From a virus: a DNA stretch of 38,008 nt. Below are positions 4,743 to 38,008 of the stretch, piece after piece (positions within the stretch are counted from its first letter, which is position 1; every line of letters starts with the position of its first letter). Both the position numbers and the translations under genes were made by a program. The notes beneath the pieces were generated by a model that worked only from the letters and a program-made list of their open reading frames with translations, was not told the origin of the DNA and did not search any database. The stretch is taken from positions 1 through 38,008 of the IMG/VR virus record IMGVR_UViG_3300048672_000439, one strand, 5' to 3'.

Positions 4743-4906
4743 AGAAACTAACAGTACAGACAATCAGTGACGTAATGCGGCACATCGCAATCAACCGTCA
4801 CAAGAACCTCACGCCGGAAGAAAAAGAAAAACGCGACGCGCACCTGAAGAAGATAGGGAAGGCTGGGGCAAAGAAGCGTTGGGTAGGTAAAGAAATAACA
4901 CCATGA
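4739..4906 (+). CDS. Small basic protein, 55 aa
   Basis: ATG 4739 to TGA 4904-4906, overlapping both neighbours as ATGA. The protein begins MKKLTVQTISDVMRHIAI and has a strongly basic C-terminal half (LTPEEKEKRDAHLKKIGKAG, then AKKRW). Probably a nucleic-acid-binding or host-interacting small protein. No family recognised. Confidence 0.65.
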   Translation: MKKLTVQTISDVMRHIAINRHKNLTPEEKEKRDAHLKKIGKAGAKKRWVGKEITP

Positions 4907-5115
4907 CCAACAGATGCAAATATTGTTATGTGATACTGGACTTTGATAGTATTCGTGGCACAGACAAATTTAATTTAGCCACCAACGACAGATTGCTAAC
5001 CTGTGATTGGTGTATGGAACATAAAACGTGTGAGGGCGAGTTTCAAATTGTGTGGTTCAAACGCGTCTGGTGGAAGTTTGTGTTGCGACGCGAATGGTGT
5101 GAGAAAGTAAGATAA
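4903..5115 (+). CDS. Small zinc-binding-type protein, 70 aa
   Basis: Two CxxC knuckles (RCKYC near residue 5 and TCDWC near residue 34), with further cysteines in KTCEGEF and EWCEKV, make this a likely zinc ribbon. The C-terminus is aromatic and basic (VWFKRVWWKFVLRR). It is coupled to the previous gene by ATGA. It is the last gene before the long structured non-coding region, which may therefore be transcribed from early promoter 2. Confidence 0.65.
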   Translation: MTNRCKYCYVILDFDSIRGTDKFNLATNDRLLTCDWCMEHKTCEGEFQIVWFKRVWWKFVLRREWCEKVR

Positions 5116-5316
5116 TAACACTGCAGCTCTTTAACAACTCGGACGGTGACCAGGGTAAATGGATTATTTCTATGGCGGGGCTAGTACTGGTCCTAAATTA
5201 CTTTAGTGTAAGCATATAGATAACGTTTACCCTATCCGCCGTCTGAACAATAGTGTGGTGGGACGGCGGGGCAACCCGCTGGTGCATCCGTTGTTCACAA
5301 TGAACAATGCCGACGC

Positions 5317-5397
5317 GGATTGAAGGATTGGCGGTACAGGAATGTACTGCTCCAACGATTCTATAGAGAATTGTGCGTATAAAAATCCATTCAATCC
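5317..5397 (+). repeat. Junction module, copy 1, inside the large RNA
   Basis: GGATTGAAGGATTGG (5317-5331) and TCCATTCAATCC (5386-5397) form an 11-bp stem with a bulged A. The stem closes a three-way junction with hairpins at 5331-5350 (GGAA loop) and 5356-5373. Both flanking strings recur exactly in copy 2 while the enclosed hairpins differ in sequence. Confidence 0.85.
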
Positions 5398-5651
5398 TCG
5401 CCGCCCCACCATACACATAGTTACTCGATTCCCGCTGAGTGAGGTTCCCCACGGTGCTACACACATCTAAGGACGTAAGGAATACATACGCCTCATTCAC
5501 GGGCATCGGGTAATTATGAGATAGTCGGTACTGGGGGGCCCGTGGGAAATGCCAACAATCGGGGGGAGGAAAATACCACTAAGCCGCAAGGCAAAAGGCT
5601 AGGGCCAGGTCCCCCTAGTGCCGATTATCAAGATAGCGAGTCGAATGGTGT

Positions 5652-5729
5652 GGATTGAAGGATTGGAGCCATCGTAAGTTGGTTCCTTCACTTCCAAAAT
5701 GGAAGTCAGCAAATGGGTCCATTCAATCC
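5652..5729 (+). repeat. Junction module, copy 2, inside the large RNA
   Basis: The same 15-nt and 12-nt strings as copy 1 lie at 5652-5666 and 5718-5729. They form the same bulged 11-bp stem, here lengthened by GGTG/CACC (5647-5650/5730-5733). The enclosed hairpins are 5665-5686 and 5690-5706. Conserved stem with divergent hairpins indicates an ancient internal duplication or a repeated interaction surface. Confidence 0.85.
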
Positions 5730-5927
5730 CACCGCTTGGCTCACTATCACAACTTCATACGTGGAGCTCTGGGGTGGTTGGAAACTATACGCCCTCTACA
5801 TAGTAAGGGGGAAAATCTATGACAACCAATGTGGGAAAACTAAATTCATGATAGACAAATTTTCCCCTCTGTTCTATCCCCCAGACCCCCGCGCGTGAAG
5901 TAGTCGGATTAGTAATAGGAAATAACC

Positions 5928-6137
5928 ATGTACAAATCAAGAGAGGAAGTAGCGAAAAGGTTTATAACAGAGTTCTCGCACACGAATGAATACACTGAAC
6001 TTATCAACGAAATCCGCCTCTCCGACCTAGCAGCGGTGCGGGAGTGGGCGAAGGAAAATACACACCTTGATACGGACGCCATTGACCTCAATCACCTCCT
6101 CTCCTTTATCACCTCATGCGAAGCGAAACTGAAATGA
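5928..6137 (+). CDS. Small acidic helical protein, 69 aa
   Basis: First gene after the large RNA. ATG 5928, with GGAAATAACC just upstream as a weak ribosome site. Almost all helix-forming (SREEVAKRFITEF, LINEIRLSDLAAVREWAK). Stop overlaps the ATG at 6134. Family not recognised. It opens the run of small accessory genes. Confidence 0.65.
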   Translation: MYKSREEVAKRFITEFSHTNEYTELINEIRLSDLAAVREWAKENTHLDTDAIDLNHLLSFITSCEAKLK

Positions 6138-6556
6138 CCTACGAATATAAAAACGAGAGCGGCGGTTGGCCGATAGAACGCAACCCCATGACAAACACAC
6201 CCAAAGAGGCGACGGATGAGGGGTTGGAATGGAAACAGTGGAGAGATAACTTTTTACAGCATCTTGATTCTTGGAGCTCAATTACTGCATACGACGAGTT
6301 AGAAAAAATGAAAGACATCATCGAACAAGGGGCAGTGCCTCGTGCATATTCAAACGGGTATACAAAGGGCCACGCCGCAGGATACGCCGCAGGGCAGAGG
6401 GAGGAACGAGAGAAGTGTGTACAGACGATTGAGGCGGCATTTAATACCTATCTAGCAGGATTTAGTATTGACCGCCCACCAGAACCAGCACATATTCGCT
6501 TGTACCTTCTTAAGTTCTTAGTAAATAATATATCTAACCCACAATCACATGAGTAA
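6134..6556 (+). CDS. Accessory protein with GHAAGYAAGQRE module, 140 aa
   Basis: ATG 6134 overlaps the previous TGA. The middle contains GYTKGHAAGYAAGQREERE, a Gly/Ala-rich helical repeat shared with the protein at 7829; the DNA of that part (6374-6404) is nearly identical to 8009-8039. Both proteins end in SNPQSHE, and both overlap the next gene by 8 nt through an identical 22-nt junction. This is one member of a duplicated cassette family. Such modules are common in small phage proteins of unknown function. Confidence 0.7.
   Translation: MTYEYKNESGGWPIERNPMTNTPKEATDEGLEWKQWRDNFLQHLDSWSSITAYDELEKMKDIIEQGAVPRAYSNGYTKGHAAGYAAGQREEREKCVQTIEAAFNTYLAGFSIDRPPEPAHIRLYLLKFLVNNISNPQSHE
6534..6555 (+). 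repeat. 22-nt gene-boundary repeat, copy 1
   Basis: A 22-base string covering the last codons of one gene (NPQSHE) and the first codons of the next (start ATGAGTA) is identical to 8175-8196. The downstream genes are otherwise unrelated, so the boundary marks a recombination joint. Confidence 0.85.
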
Positions 6557-6734
6557 AGATATAAAACCAGTACAAGGAGTGTCTTGTCAGAATAAACGAG
6601 GCGAATGGGTGCCAGCAATAGAAGAACCCTATTATTTTCGTTTCGCTGGAATGAAGTGTCGTTGCGGAATTATTTTTTGGACACGTAACCGTTACGAGGA
6701 ACATTATTCACATAAGCATATCTTAGGTCTATGA
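6549..6734 (+). CDS. Small Cys/His protein, 61 aa
   Basis: Starts within the 3' end of the preceding gene (8-nt overlap). It has MKCRCGIIFWTRNRYEEHYSHKH: two Cys in CxC plus three histidines, arranged like a short zinc finger (C-x-C...H-x3-H). Ends as ATGA with the next gene. Likely a small zinc-binding protein; function unknown. Confidence 0.65.
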   Translation: MSKDIKPVQGVSCQNKRGEWVPAIEEPYYFRFAGMKCRCGIIFWTRNRYEEHYSHKHILGL

Positions 6735-6991
6735 CCAAACCACTCGCCGAGAAGTTTGAGGAAATAGTCGAGAGCATAGTGATACGGCTTACAAGAATCG
6801 CGCACCCCCAAGACCTAGGTAAACCCACATCTGATTTAGAGGTTGCTATTCGTGATGCTTTTCACGCCGCCGAAACAGAGATACGGGCTGACGAAAGAGC
6901 GAGGATAAGAAACGTCGCAGAGGAAATATTAGAGGACACCATACGTGAAAACACCTTCCTCTCCTTTCTAGCTAAAGAGAACACACAATGA
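6731..6991 (+). CDS. Cassette protein MTKPLAEKFEE family, copy 1, 86 aa
   Basis: Its start (ATGACCAAACCACTCGCCGA) is identical to 8575-8594. The centre (AAETEIRADERARI, DNA 6867-6885) matches 8675-8693, and the end (FLSFLAKEN) also matches the paralogue at 8575. The parts between are unrelated, so the pair diverged or recombined in segments. Mostly helical and acidic. Function unknown. Confidence 0.7.
   Translation: MTKPLAEKFEEIVESIVIRLTRIAHPQDLGKPTSDLEVAIRDAFHAAETEIRADERARIRNVAEEILEDTIRENTFLSFLAKENTQ
6965..6983 (+). repeat. 19-nt gene linker repeat, copy 1
   Basis: TTTCTAGCTAAAGAGAACA precedes ATG 6988. It also occurs at 7577-7595 and 8872-8890, each time ending a few bases before an ATG. 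The AAAGAG within it can serve as a ribosome site. In copies 1 and 3 it also encodes FLAKEN. Confidence 0.85.
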
Positions 6992-7836: not shown

Positions 7837-8197
7837 CAAAACCGATGAGGCGTTGGTGGAGTTGGGAACATGTCACAGAAAGGAACCACAGCCTGATGAT
7901 GAGTTATTCAATGAACTGTGGGAGAAACACCACTACTTGAAAGCACTTGACCGCGTAGGATACATAAAAGTTTTTAACGATTTCCGCACTGCTCTCTCCC
8001 GCTCCCACGCCGCAGGACACGCCGCAGGGCAGAGGGAGGTACTGCAAATCGTGGATTCCGTTGTAGGAGAAGATGAAATGGTGCCAACGATAGCCGACGA
8101 CAGTGTGTGGCCGATACACGTTGAAGCAATAAACACAGAACGTGCCCGTATTAGAAAGTTACTTGCGCCCCTCTCTAACCCACAATCACATGAGTAG
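7829..8197 (+). CDS. Accessory protein with HAAGHAAGQRE module, 122 aa
   Basis: Paralogue of the protein at 6134: shares the SHAAGHAAGQREV block and the LSNPQSHE ending but has a different N-terminal part (ELFNELWEKHHYLKALDRVGYIKVF). Its start lies 8 nt inside the preceding gene. Function unknown. Confidence 0.7.
   Translation: MNNKTDEALVELGTCHRKEPQPDDELFNELWEKHHYLKALDRVGYIKVFNDFRTALSRSHAAGHAAGQREVLQIVDSVVGEDEMVPTIADDSVWPIHVEAINTERARIRKLLAPLSNPQSHE
8175..8196 (+). repeat. 22-nt gene-boundary repeat, copy 2
   Basis: Identical to 6534-6555 and again spans the end of a GHAAG-family gene and the start codon of the next. Confidence 0.85.
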
Positions 8198-8597
8198 AAT
8201 ACTTTGTTGGATTTTAGGTCATAAAGTAGGGAGTTTGTCCGTCGGTTTGAGCCAAGCGATATGCGGTAGATGTGGTCGTAAATACCGAGTGTCATACGAT
8301 ATGAGTTATGGAGGCACTGTTTTTCACGAAGAAGTCAAAACGCCCACTGTAAAACCTCACGATATTGACACGCAGTTATACGAAACACGAACGCTTGTGT
8401 TCTTGGAAACTGCGCCGCAGTCGAACACCTACAACCAAGTTCTGCTTGATTCTGACACGTTCAAGAAAATGACTGACGTGATTAGTGTGTCGCTAGGCAG
8501 GGCTGTGAATGGAATAGAGGATAGGAGCATTACAAGTTCGGAGGAAGAGTACAAGTTACCAGATTTACAATCCTATGACCAAACCACTCGCCGATAG
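8190..8597 (+). CDS. Hypothetical zinc-type protein, 135 aa
   Basis: I choose ATG 8190 (MSRILCWILGHKVG), at the same position in the boundary repeat as the ATG at 6549. ICGRCGRKYRV offers a CxxC, and the early CWILGHK Cys/His could complete a site. This N-terminal CWILGHK...CxRCG pattern is frequent in small phage proteins. The rest (TPTVKPHDIDTQLYETRTLVFLET) looks like a beta domain. The 3' end runs 23 nt into the next gene. Confidence 0.65.
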   Translation: MSRILCWILGHKVGSLSVGLSQAICGRCGRKYRVSYDMSYGGTVFHEEVKTPTVKPHDIDTQLYETRTLVFLETAPQSNTYNQVLLDSDTFKKMTDVISVSLGRAVNGIEDRSITSSEEEYKLPDLQSYDQTTRR

Positions 8598-8895
8598 GTT
8601 TGAGGAGAAGTTTGGCGATACTGGTGATAATCGCGCAGACGCACTTATACAGGTGTGTGCTGACTGGCTCCGCACCGCCGAAACAGAGATACGTGTTGAC
8701 GAGGGGGCGAGGGTGGCGGAGTATAAAGATGTGGTTGACCGTGCAGTTAGTTTGTTTTCACTTATTCGTTATCGTGGTGGCATAAAAAACTGGGGGACAA
8801 TGGGAATGTGCGAAAAATACGAAGTCGACGAGGCGATAGGAAAACTTGCGAAACTATCCGATGTCCTCTCCTTTCTAGCTAAAGAGAACAAATGA
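8575..8895 (+). CDS. Cassette protein MTKPLADRFEE family, copy 2, 106 aa
   Basis: Paralogue of the gene at 6731, with identical first 20 bases, the conserved TAETEIRVDEGAR centre and the LSFLAKEN end. An extra ~30 residues (RAVSLFSLIRYRGGIKNWG) lie between centre and end. The end forms linker copy 3 before the next ATG. Function unknown. Confidence 0.7.
   Translation: MTKPLADRFEEKFGDTGDNRADALIQVCADWLRTAETEIRVDEGARVAEYKDVVDRAVSLFSLIRYRGGIKNWGTMGMCEKYEVDEAIGKLAKLSDVLSFLAKENK
8872..8890 (+). repeat. 19-nt gene linker repeat, copy 3
   Basis: Identical to 6965-6983 and one base before ATG 8892. Confidence 0.85.
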
Positions 8896-8954
8896 GCTAC
8901 ACCCTAAAACTCGGCACCACCGCCTCCCTACGGTTTGAGAACGATAACAAGTAA
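8892..8954 (+). pseudogene. Truncated 20-aa copy of the gene at 9158
   Basis: ATG 8892 gives a 20-residue product, MSYTLKLGTTASLRFENDNK. It matches the N-terminus of the 91-residue protein at 9158 (LPLGKTASLRFENAINE) and stops directly after the shared block. This looks like the remnant of a second copy cut at its 5' end by cassette recombination, though a functional peptide is not excluded. Confidence 0.5.
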
Positions 8955-8965
8955 TAAATAAAGAT

Positions 8966-9139
8966 ATGAAAACAACAAAAAACACAATTAGAGCAAGACT
9001 TTCAGTATATGGAATGAGTGGGCTAACCAACAGACAATTAAAAGCACTTAAAAAGTGGGTTGAAATGTTGGCAAAAGAAATGGGCGAGTTAGAACCAAGG
9101 GCATATACAAAGAATCCAAGGTTTACGCTTTACAAGTAA
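8966..9139 (+). CDS. Small basic protein, 57 aa
   Basis: ATG 8966 to TAA 9137-9139, not coupled to its neighbours. Basic and helical: TIRARLSVYGMSGLTNRQLK then LKKWVEMLAKEMGELEP. The middle may form a small helical DNA- or protein-binding unit. More A-rich than its neighbours. Family not recognised. Confidence 0.6.
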   Translation: MKTTKNTIRARLSVYGMSGLTNRQLKALKKWVEMLAKEMGELEPRAYTKNPRFTLYK

Positions 9140-10624: not shown

Positions 10625-11812
10625 ATGCAATACTCGGAAACCACAGCGACCAAAAAGATAGCGGCACTGAATAAGAAGATTCGTATCGTTCAGGGCGGGA
10701 CGAGTGCCAGCAAGACAATAAGCATATTGTTGTACCTTATTGCCCGCGCCCAGATGGATACTTCGCCAACTATGACTTCAATCGTAGCGGAGTCCATACC
10801 CCATTTGAAGAAAGGTGCACTCCGTGATTTTAAGAACATACTCAAAGCTCACAACTACTGGAAAGAAGACCTTTGGGCTGAAACAGATAAGATATACACC
10901 TTCGAAACAGGCTCACAGATAGAGTTCTTCGGCGCAGACCAGGCAGAGAAGCTCCGTGGTGGCCGCCGGGATAGGTGTTTTATGAATGAGGCAAACAACC
11001 TCACACTGGGAGCCTTTGATGAATTGGAAGTCCGTACCAAGGAGTTCTTGTTTATAGACTACAACCCTACCAATGAGTTCTGGGTGCAGGAGGAGATTAT
11101 ACCAAACCGACAAGACGTTGATTTTATTATTCTCACCTACAAGGATAACGAGGCGTGCCCGGAAGAAATCGTCGCGTCTATTGAAGCCCGCAAGAATCGC
11201 AAAGGCTGGTATCAGGTGTATGGCCTCGGTCAGTTAGGTGAAGTAGAGGGCAAGATATACAAAGACTGGCAGGTTATAGACGATGTGCCGCATGAAGCAC
11301 GACTGGAGCGCGTAGGGCTCGACTTCGGCTACACAAACGACCCGACGGCCATTGTCGCAATCTACTACTGGAACGGTGCCTATATCCTCGATGAGTTAGT
11401 TTTCCAGAAAGGTATGTCAAATAAACAGATAGCCGACACACTGATAAATATAAAGTCAGTTCTTGTAGTGGCAGACAGCGCGGAGCCAAAGAGCATAGAC
11501 GAGATACGTTCGTTTGGTATCAACATCATGCCGACCCTTAAAGGTGCTGATTCAGTGCGTCAAGGTATTCAGCAGGTGCAAGACCAGCGTATCTTTGTAA
11601 CGAAGCGTAGTGTGAACGTGCTTAAAGAATATCGCAACTACTTATGGGAAACGGACAGGGATGGCCGGGTACTGAATACGCCCGAACACCAGTGGAGTCA
11701 CAGTATGGATTCAATCCGCTATGGGATGACGTCACTCGTATCAGTAATCCGTGCCAATGAAATGCTCCCGGTTCCTGCGTGGAAAGCAAAGCCAAGTAAC
11801 CCGGCACGATAA
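10625..11812 (+). CDS. terL: Terminase large subunit, 395 aa
   Basis: ATPase plus nuclease that packages DNA into the prohead. Walker A is GGTSASKT at 24-31, a variant lacking the usual Gly before Lys. A Walker-B-like RDRCFMNEAN occupies about 115-124, with Glu122 as the likely catalytic carboxylate. The RNase H-like nuclease has LDFGYTNDPTAIV (Asp233), VVADSAEP (Asp284) and HSMDSIRYG (His359, Asp362). Length 395 is in the normal range for compact terminases of this type. It starts right after the preceding stop. The protein is complete, with both activities apparently intact. A late promoter lies at its 3' end. Confidence 0.95.
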   Translation: MQYSETTATKKIAALNKKIRIVQGGTSASKTISILLYLIARAQMDTSPTMTSIVAESIPHLKKGALRDFKNILKAHNYWKEDLWAETDKIYTFETGSQIEFFGADQAEKLRGGRRDRCFMNEANNLTLGAFDELEVRTKEFLFIDYNPTNEFWVQEEIIPNRQDVDFIILTYKDNEACPEEIVASIEARKNRKGWYQVYGLGQLGEVEGKIYKDWQVIDDVPHEARLERVGLDFGYTNDPTAIVAIYYWNGAYILDELVFQKGMSNKQIADTLINIKSVLVVADSAEPKSIDEIRSFGINIMPTLKGADSVRQGIQQVQDQRIFVTKRSVNVLKEYRNYLWETDRDGRVLNTPEHQWSHSMDSIRYGMTSLVSVIRANEMLPVPAWKAKPSNPAR

Positions 11813-36196: not shown

Positions 36197-36216
36197 TCCT
36201 TTGTCATCTTCCCCGT

Positions 36217-36497
36217 CGCGTACCACTCGCCTGTTTGAAGGTGAGGGCGGCAAACATTTATATATGCGCAAACCTCTATCGGCGGCAGGTTAGTGGTATG
36301 CGGTGGGGAAGGTGCTTTCCGGCTCGCTCTGAACAGAGCGAAAAGACTCACAACGAAGTTACGCTAACTTCGACGAGATTGGCCCGTCATGGCGGGCCGG
36401 AGAGTAGTTCTTTGAAAATTGGTGGTGAGTTGGGGGCTGATAAGAGCCGGACTACAACGATGCTTTTATTTAGGCGGGTGTTCCGGCTGTGTTGTAG
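36217..36497 (+). ncRNA. Second structured RNA region with predicted pseudoknot
   Basis: The 372-nt gap 36197-36568 has no gene but strong structure. An 11-bp helix (36217-36227/36292-36302) closes a three-way junction with hairpins 36232-36237/36251-36256 and 36271-36275/36287-36291. Three hairpins follow: 36325-36340 (CGCTCT/AGAGCG), 36354-36372 (8 bp) and 36381-36398 (GGCCCG/CGGGCC). Then AGCCGGA (36445-36451) pairs with TCCGGCT (36482-36488) while CTACAAC (36452-36458) pairs with GTTGTAG (36491-36497), an H-type pseudoknot. Whether it is a separate RNA, a 3' UTR or a leader for 36569 is unknown. Confidence 0.7.
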
Positions 36498-36568
36498 CAG
36501 GACCGACACCGAAAGCCTAAACTGTTTTGTCAGTTGCCCCATTTCACCATCAACAAAAAGGAGAAGGT

Positions 36569-37773: not shown

Positions 37774-38008
37774 ATGCTATACACACTCTCAAACGTAGAA
37801 TTGCGACCCGAAGGCCCTTACGGTCCGACCATTTCTTGCTCTGCAACTGGTGTAGACGGTACAAGTATCGAAAAGGCAACCATTTACAAGAAACAAAAAG
37901 ACGGCACCGAGTTCCCTAACTTTGAGAAGTTGGCGGAGGGGTACAAGTTAGAGGCGAACGCATGGAAGAACCCAAAAGGTTATACCTCTCTTTTTCCACC
38001 GAAGCCGC
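37774..38008 (+). CDS. N-terminal part of junction-spanning early protein
   Basis: ATG 37774 (MLYTLSNVELRPEGPYGPTI). Open to the window edge and, through the repeated ends, on to the stop at 308, giving 164 residues. The first ~78 residues look like a small beta fold: YTLSNVELRPEGPYGPTISC, YKKQKDG, then LEANAWKNPKGYTSLFPPKP. The gene is a standard member of the early operon begun at promoter 3. Identity is unknown; an OB-fold single-strand DNA-binding protein is one possibility. Confidence 0.75.
   Translation, partial: MLYTLSNVELRPEGPYGPTISCSATGVDGTSIEKATIYKKQKDGTEFPNFEKLAEGYKLEANAWKNPKGYTSLFPPKP
37961..38008. repeat. Right copy of 48-bp terminal direct repeat
   Basis: Matches 1-48 with one mismatch (G37978). 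See the left copy. This version encodes NPKGYTS, more plausible than the cysteine form at the left end. Confidence 0.9.

Follow-up and report, generated by a model that had tools for sequence, protein, structure and literature searches.

A six-domain structured RNA of a phage genome, its duplicated three-way-junction module, and a possible scaffold role

Background

To our knowledge, very few RNA classes match the size and complexity of the RNA described here, and those linked to phages have no known function. GOLLD and ROOL, both large, are encoded by phages and prophages, frequently close to tRNA islands; their function is unknown, and they form RNA nanocages; many GOLLD RNAs exceed 800 nt, and their 3' region is universally conserved (PMC12286853). 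A catalogue of candidate structures from the human microbiome includes phage-associated ones (PMC8040213). Among the papers searched, none joins the terms relevant to our RNA, with the proviso that the supplementary tables of that catalogue may contain an unnamed candidate.

The sequence analysed here (the window, used at its full length) is a virus record of 38,008 bases that carries genes for a terminase, an HNH protein, a DnaD-like helicase loader, tail proteins and other phage functions, apparently all on the + strand. No tRNA genes were found within it. Its two ends, 1-48 and 37961-38008, when read directly, agree over 48 bases but for a single mismatch; a circular or permuted genome is therefore probable, and with it a record that is close to complete. 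A Shine-Dalgarno-like site is seen for 4 of the 45 window genes, which points to a host that seldom uses such sites; the nearest terminases from isolates, at 43%, are those of Flavobacterium phages. A block of small genes is apparently duplicated (6370-6983 and 8005-8890), with repeats of 34-38 nt at 87-95% identity plus exact repeats of 27 and 23 nt.

A strand-specific fold in a gap between genes

An earlier note, made from the sequence alone, had placed a large, ornately structured phage RNA in the gap 5116-5927, which it held to lack a credible gene. Inspection of the open reading frames agrees about the gap: the longest ORFs, 102 aa on the - strand and 61 aa on the + strand, both run across helices. 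A coding origin was considered and dismissed, since these ORFs are not credible and a module of the region recurs as RNA in other phages. The large structured RNA itself, here called RNA1, is borne out by its folding energy and by covariation of that module among homologues. RNA1 and the genes that serve to place it are as follows.

4903-5115, + strand: a 70-aa gene with CxxC pairs and no family match, ending 23 nt before RNA1
5139-5893, + strand: RNA1, a structured noncoding RNA of six back-to-back domains (from z-scores, pair probabilities, and the absence of a gene and of an Rfam match)
5928-6137, + strand: a 69-aa gene downstream of RNA1, with no significant family match
10625-11812, + strand: the terminase large subunit (PHROG E 1e-32), a syntenic landmark 5 kb downstream of RNA1

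The borders of RNA1 are approximate and give a length of about 755 nt. Folded as the + strand, 5110-5930 has a minimum free energy (MFE) of -337 kcal/mol and z = -11.0 against dinucleotide shuffles, compared with z = -5.3 for the - strand; trimming to 5139-5893 moves these values to -13.9 and -4.3. The + fold includes 28 G-U pairs and three A.C single mismatches, the - fold 19 G-U pairs and 15 A.C mismatches. This asymmetry points to the + strand as the folded molecule under selection, and it counts against a DNA hairpin element. The MFE structure has 26 helices of at least 5 bp, the majority with P > 0.9.

A sliding fold scan of the window ranks 36201-36400 best and windows of 5101-5600 next, and the RNA1 region and 36205-36565 are the window's two strongest structural anomalies. 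The latter is a second ornate RNA-like region on the + strand, with three adjacent domains of which the first is closed by 23 contiguous pairs (z = -7.9 on + versus -5.5 on -). It has no Rfam match above chance, and the module described below is absent from it.

By MFE and pair probabilities, the domains of RNA1 are spaced 1-11 nt apart, each with a long closing helix.

5139-5246, + strand: D1, closed by 10 bp + 10 bp, with a branched top (helix P 0.98-0.99)
5253-5414, + strand: D2, closed by 10 bp, 5253-5262/5405-5414 (P = 1.00); contains module copy M1
5416-5518, + strand: D3, closed by 14 bp + 10 bp (pair probabilities)
5520-5629, + strand: D4, closed by 19 contiguous pairs (P = 0.96, stem scan)
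5632-5748, + strand: D5, outer stem of 5+7+5 bp (P 0.99-1.00); contains module copy M2
5760-5893, + strand: D6, closed by 5 bp + 7 bp, branched, its interior less certain (pair probabilities)

The closing helix of D4 (5520-5538/5611-5629) is exactly the run of 19 contiguous pairs that had been listed as the strongest in the gap, with a mean pair probability of 0.96. A second helix, listed with 17 pairs, is correct as a long stem but not in its 17-pair form: the D3 stem is longer and interrupted, with 14 pairs (5416-5429/5505-5518), a short helix, and then 10 pairs (5436-5445/5490-5499). Two hairpins listed as GNRA-capped are present in the predicted fold, with the loops GGAA (5339-5342) and GUAA (inside 5672-5679).

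A duplicated three-way-junction module

D2 and D5 each contain a copy of a module of about 80 nt made of a helix P1, a variable P2, a variable P3 and an A-rich linker (E-values from the covariance model R2, see below).

5317-5397, + strand: M1, P1 with a bulged A, P2 with the GGAA loop, P3, A-rich linker (E 1.8e-15)
5652-5729, + strand: M2, P1 sequence as in M1, with a different P2, P3 and outer stem and the GUAA loop (E 1.6e-12)

M2 sits 335 nt after M1. The two have the P1 sequence in common; their P2, P3 and outer stems differ, yet all are paired. The invariant core of P1 is UUGAAGGA / UCC-A-UUCAA. In M1, GGAUUGAA-GGAUU pairs with AAUCC-A-UUCAAUCC, leaving the A bulged, and M2 reads GGUCC where M1 reads AAUCC. 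Joiners measure 2-3 nt between P2 and P3 and 8-9 nt, A-rich, between P3 and P1; in the nomenclature of three-way junctions, family C is the layout in which the P3-P1 joiner is long and the P2-P3 joiner short. A reading of the P1 strand as a mimic of the tRNA T-loop (UUCRANY) agrees with some copies but not with those of record G005 and loci L139 and L134, and was rejected.

Scanning IMG/VR for the P1 word gave one true relative, record G001 (locus L003), where blastn confirms the module at 76% over 81 nt (E 5e-8). No window protein matches G001 by tblastn at 1e-3, and ORF-against-ORF comparison gives a single match, at 31%. A covariance model, R1, built from three module copies only, finds the module in G005 (E 5e-4 in 1.26 Mb), a record chosen for a terminase 68% identical to the window's, the RNA having played no part in the choice. 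The G005 copy revealed the constant part of P1, and two further pattern scans add L139 (E 9e-9), L136, L132, L208 (E 1e-6) and L134 (R2 E 6.6e-5); the E-values of the module models rest on short calibrations. Pattern and covariance-model searches together find the module in the window plus seven other IMG/VR phages, eight carriers being a small sample, and a second covariance model, R2, run over 50 phage records returns just these known carriers.

Most other pattern hits lie inside genes or lack the fold and were rejected, as was L002, where homology is confined to the pattern itself. Weak R2 scores at L162, L188, L202, L147, L137 and L131 were treated as chance (the L131 match is inside a 383-aa ORF, and those at L137, L147, L162 and L202 have poor or different folds). 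R2 gave no match in 296 Bacteroidota genomes, a negative of little weight because the search had no positive control. By BLAST, RNA1 has no match among INPHARED phages and plasmids, and the RNA regions of the relatives have tRNA-arm or chance matches only; a bait search with two products of the neighbourhood, a portal-like 609-aa protein and a 146-aa gene, found no relatives. Hits in Saprospiraceae and other genomes proved to be chance matches or tandem-repeat hairpins that have a 17-nt word in common with P1 and no junction. Genomes of this kind, MAGs of Saprospiraceae and other Bacteroidota, contain many perfect hairpins of AGGATTGR octamers that have these 17 nt of P1 and lack the junction (L106, L107, L110, L111, L114-L117, L119, L122-L124).

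Covariation

The eight-row module alignment, itself fitted to the covariance model, has standard pairs in 92.9% of its pair cells, and 17 of its 30 pairs have changed on both sides (39 cells); 0/500 shuffles reach either number. Sliding the registers by 1-3 columns leaves at most six double-changed pairs. Double changes affect 8 of 9 pairs in P2 and 6 of 8 in P3, and P1 is nearly invariant. Because the alignment was fitted to the model, we added a test of the outer stem that is independent of both model and pattern, taking from each of nine copies the 24-nt arms that flank the P1 core. Arms fold with their own partners at a mean of -27.0 kcal/mol versus -14.6 with swapped ones, and 0/20,000 permutations equal the observed sum; the outer stem of L134 is weak (-11.1). 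All the features of the proposed module family (P1, P2, P3, outer stem, covariation) occur in both window copies and in the seven phages.

The earlier note had staked its reading on covariation among homologues, and covariation is there, for the module only. No homologues were found of D1, D3, D4 and D6, for which the evidence is folding energy alone, and RNA1 without its modules has z = -6.0. The conserved part of RNA1 is the module only; the remaining domains are idiosyncratic, and the array style recurs in relatives. We are nearly certain that RNA1 represents a real new family of structured RNAs.

Genome context of the carriers

The place of the module upstream of the terminase gene recurs: six of the eight carriers (the window, G005, G055, G056, G057 and G058; G001 and G054 differ) have it on the terminase strand, 1.2-5.8 kb before that gene, the terminase of L208 having been identified by reading its sequence. 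The carriers are loosely related phages, the genes adjacent to the module vary among them, and no gene common to all was found.

The setting of the module ranges from arrays to single elements. The array of G054 (L132) consists of three adjacent domains and ends with the module (z -10.4). G005 has two large domains (z -6.8), and a long helix encloses the module together with a tRNA-like fold directly before it (Rfam tRNA 25.2 bits, the gathering score being 29). G001 has a hairpin array (z -6.7), then a 71-aa CxxC gene, then the module. The sense strand folds better in all arrays examined (window, G054, G005, G001). At L208 the module is a stand-alone element of about 110 nt between tRNA-Leu and tRNA-Ile, and at L136 it again stands alone as a short element of about 110 nt, so the large array is not required in every carrier. 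The modules of G001 and L136 sit in a short gap between small genes.

Other observations were made in these records. A gene of about 70 aa with CxxC immediately precedes the structured region or module both at L003 (681-896, - strand) and in the window (4903-5115), similarity of sequence between the two not being established. G001 encodes a GroEL-like chaperonin (37370-38968, or L085 17370-18968; PHROG E 4e-115). In G005, an inverted repeat of 18 bp at 8915-9048 (L089) lets a portion of a tRNA-Leu gene (8870-8965) pair with downstream sequence, and is perhaps the trace of an attachment site.

Among terminase relatives, strongly folded sense-strand windows (below -3.5) account for about 0.2-1.0% upstream of the terminase, and for 0-0.4% in the first 3 kb from the terminase start. 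Several of the folded units upstream are branched with long stems and others are plain terminators, so this enrichment is suggestive only. The module was not found in most of the terminase relatives searched. In phages without the module, branched units of 90-150 nt closed by long helices lie upstream of the terminase at L064, L061, L051, L013, L017 and L040; they are possibly further classes in the same style.

Proposed role and alternatives

As the best explanation of the whole we propose, with a probability of about 0.5, a new family of phage RNAs acting in trans as a scaffold, with the module as its docking site. The scaffold or docking role, taken by itself, is offered tentatively. RNA1 would be transcribed along with phage genes during infection and would then work in trans; its variable long stems may be spacers that hold the arms out, and the module may dock a protein or, via its GNRA loop, another copy of the RNA; the putative contact surface is the invariant P1 together with its bulged A. 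The invariance of the P1 sequence amid variable helices points to such a contact site. Two modules per RNA1 molecule could make binding two-fold in the window phage.

Put more generally, this may be a new large modular RNA class, a portable docking module set on phage-specific arrays of arms, with one to several RNAs per genome, that could act as an assembled machine or scaffold while uncultured hosts are being infected; we regard this as a possibility somewhat short of even odds. The family offers a simpler entry to large phage RNAs, as it has a recognisable core of 80 nt, a covariance model with which members can be found, and a repeated genomic position. Natural variants range from the 110-nt stand-alone module to the 755-nt six-arm array; the small versions lend themselves to probing, to folding and to use as bait, the large one to tests of assembly.

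Action in cis is the alternative that survives best. On this view the arms would govern processing, stability or translation from within the untranslated parts of a long phage mRNA (likened to RNase III sites or tRNA spacers), with no separate RNA. No promoter or terminator signal above chance was found around RNA1 on the + strand, so RNA1 may be no more than a segment of a longer mRNA, and for this reason, together with the stand-alone modules, the cis reading keeps some weight. It also accords with neighbouring genes on the same strand as RNA1, with modules squeezed between two tRNA genes (L208) or into short gaps between small genes (G001, L136), and with the similar hairpin units that many relatives have ahead of the terminase gene. 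Against it, a six-arm array of 755 nt with two identical module cores exceeds the needs of a processing site, and the adjacent genes vary among carriers. The size of RNA1, its doubled module and the change of neighbours between carriers lead us to prefer action in trans; we consider action in cis unlikely, if well worth keeping in mind.

We judge it improbable that RNA1 serves as a decoy or counters host defence by sequestering a nuclease, a helicase or a defence protein that senses RNA. Such a role would suit the phage context and an RNA in which many long, individually different duplexes with G-U pairs surround one constant element, but nothing ties the module to a defence system.

A packaging RNA acting with the terminase, like the pRNA of phi29-type phages, would explain why six of eight carriers have the module upstream of that gene on the same strand. 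G001 and G054 lack this placement, however; several kb of other genes separate module and terminase, most terminase relatives searched have no module, and the Rfam pRNA family is unmatched, all of which makes the idea very improbable.

The earlier note had left the choice between a divergent member of GOLLD or ROOL and a new class. For the former speak the size, the phage setting, the tRNA neighbours at L208 and the tRNA-like fold in G005. The Rfam check that the note called for gives RNA1 no family of Rfam 15 at its gathering score and chance-level matches only at E<=10; GOLLD, ROOL, OLE, HEARO / IscB guide RNA, group I/II introns and phage pRNA are all unmatched. The GOLLD and ROOL models likewise find no match at E<=1 in three relatives (L215, L219, L220). 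Since neither model matches RNA1 or these relatives, a divergent GOLLD or ROOL is not supported and is highly unlikely; the new class gains support because Rfam 15 has no match.

That the hairpins function as DNA, be it as mobile inverted repeats, as attC-like sites or as an origin, is scarcely credible: inverted repeats are visible on both strands and the Saprospiraceae hairpins have the 17-nt GGATTGAAGGATTGGAG in common with the module, but the strand asymmetry, with G-U pairs on + and few A.C mismatches, the better folding of the sense strand in all arrays, the three-way junction with GNRA loops and the strand conserved relative to the terminase in most carriers argue for RNA.

Comparison with known RNA classes

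The pRNA of phi29-type phages is about 170 nt long. RNA1 resembles it as a phage RNA near packaging genes and differs in its 755 nt and in the unmatched model. OLE and HEARO are bacterial RNAs that resemble RNA1 in being large and ornate; their models do not match it. ROOL is large, branched and phage-borne, as RNA1 is, and is often near tRNA islands (PMC12286853); it is described as a single complex fold with multiple pseudoknots, whereas RNA1 is a series of independent arms. With GOLLD, RNA1 has in common its size class, a highly branched fold and a phage or prophage setting, being encoded in a virus record with terminase and tail genes. As to tRNA genes, two flank the module at L208, G005 has a tRNA-like fold below threshold, and the window has none. 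GOLLD keeps a conserved 3' region; in the family described here, by contrast, conservation is confined to a module of 80 nt, which may be present twice and occurs either on its own or within an array.
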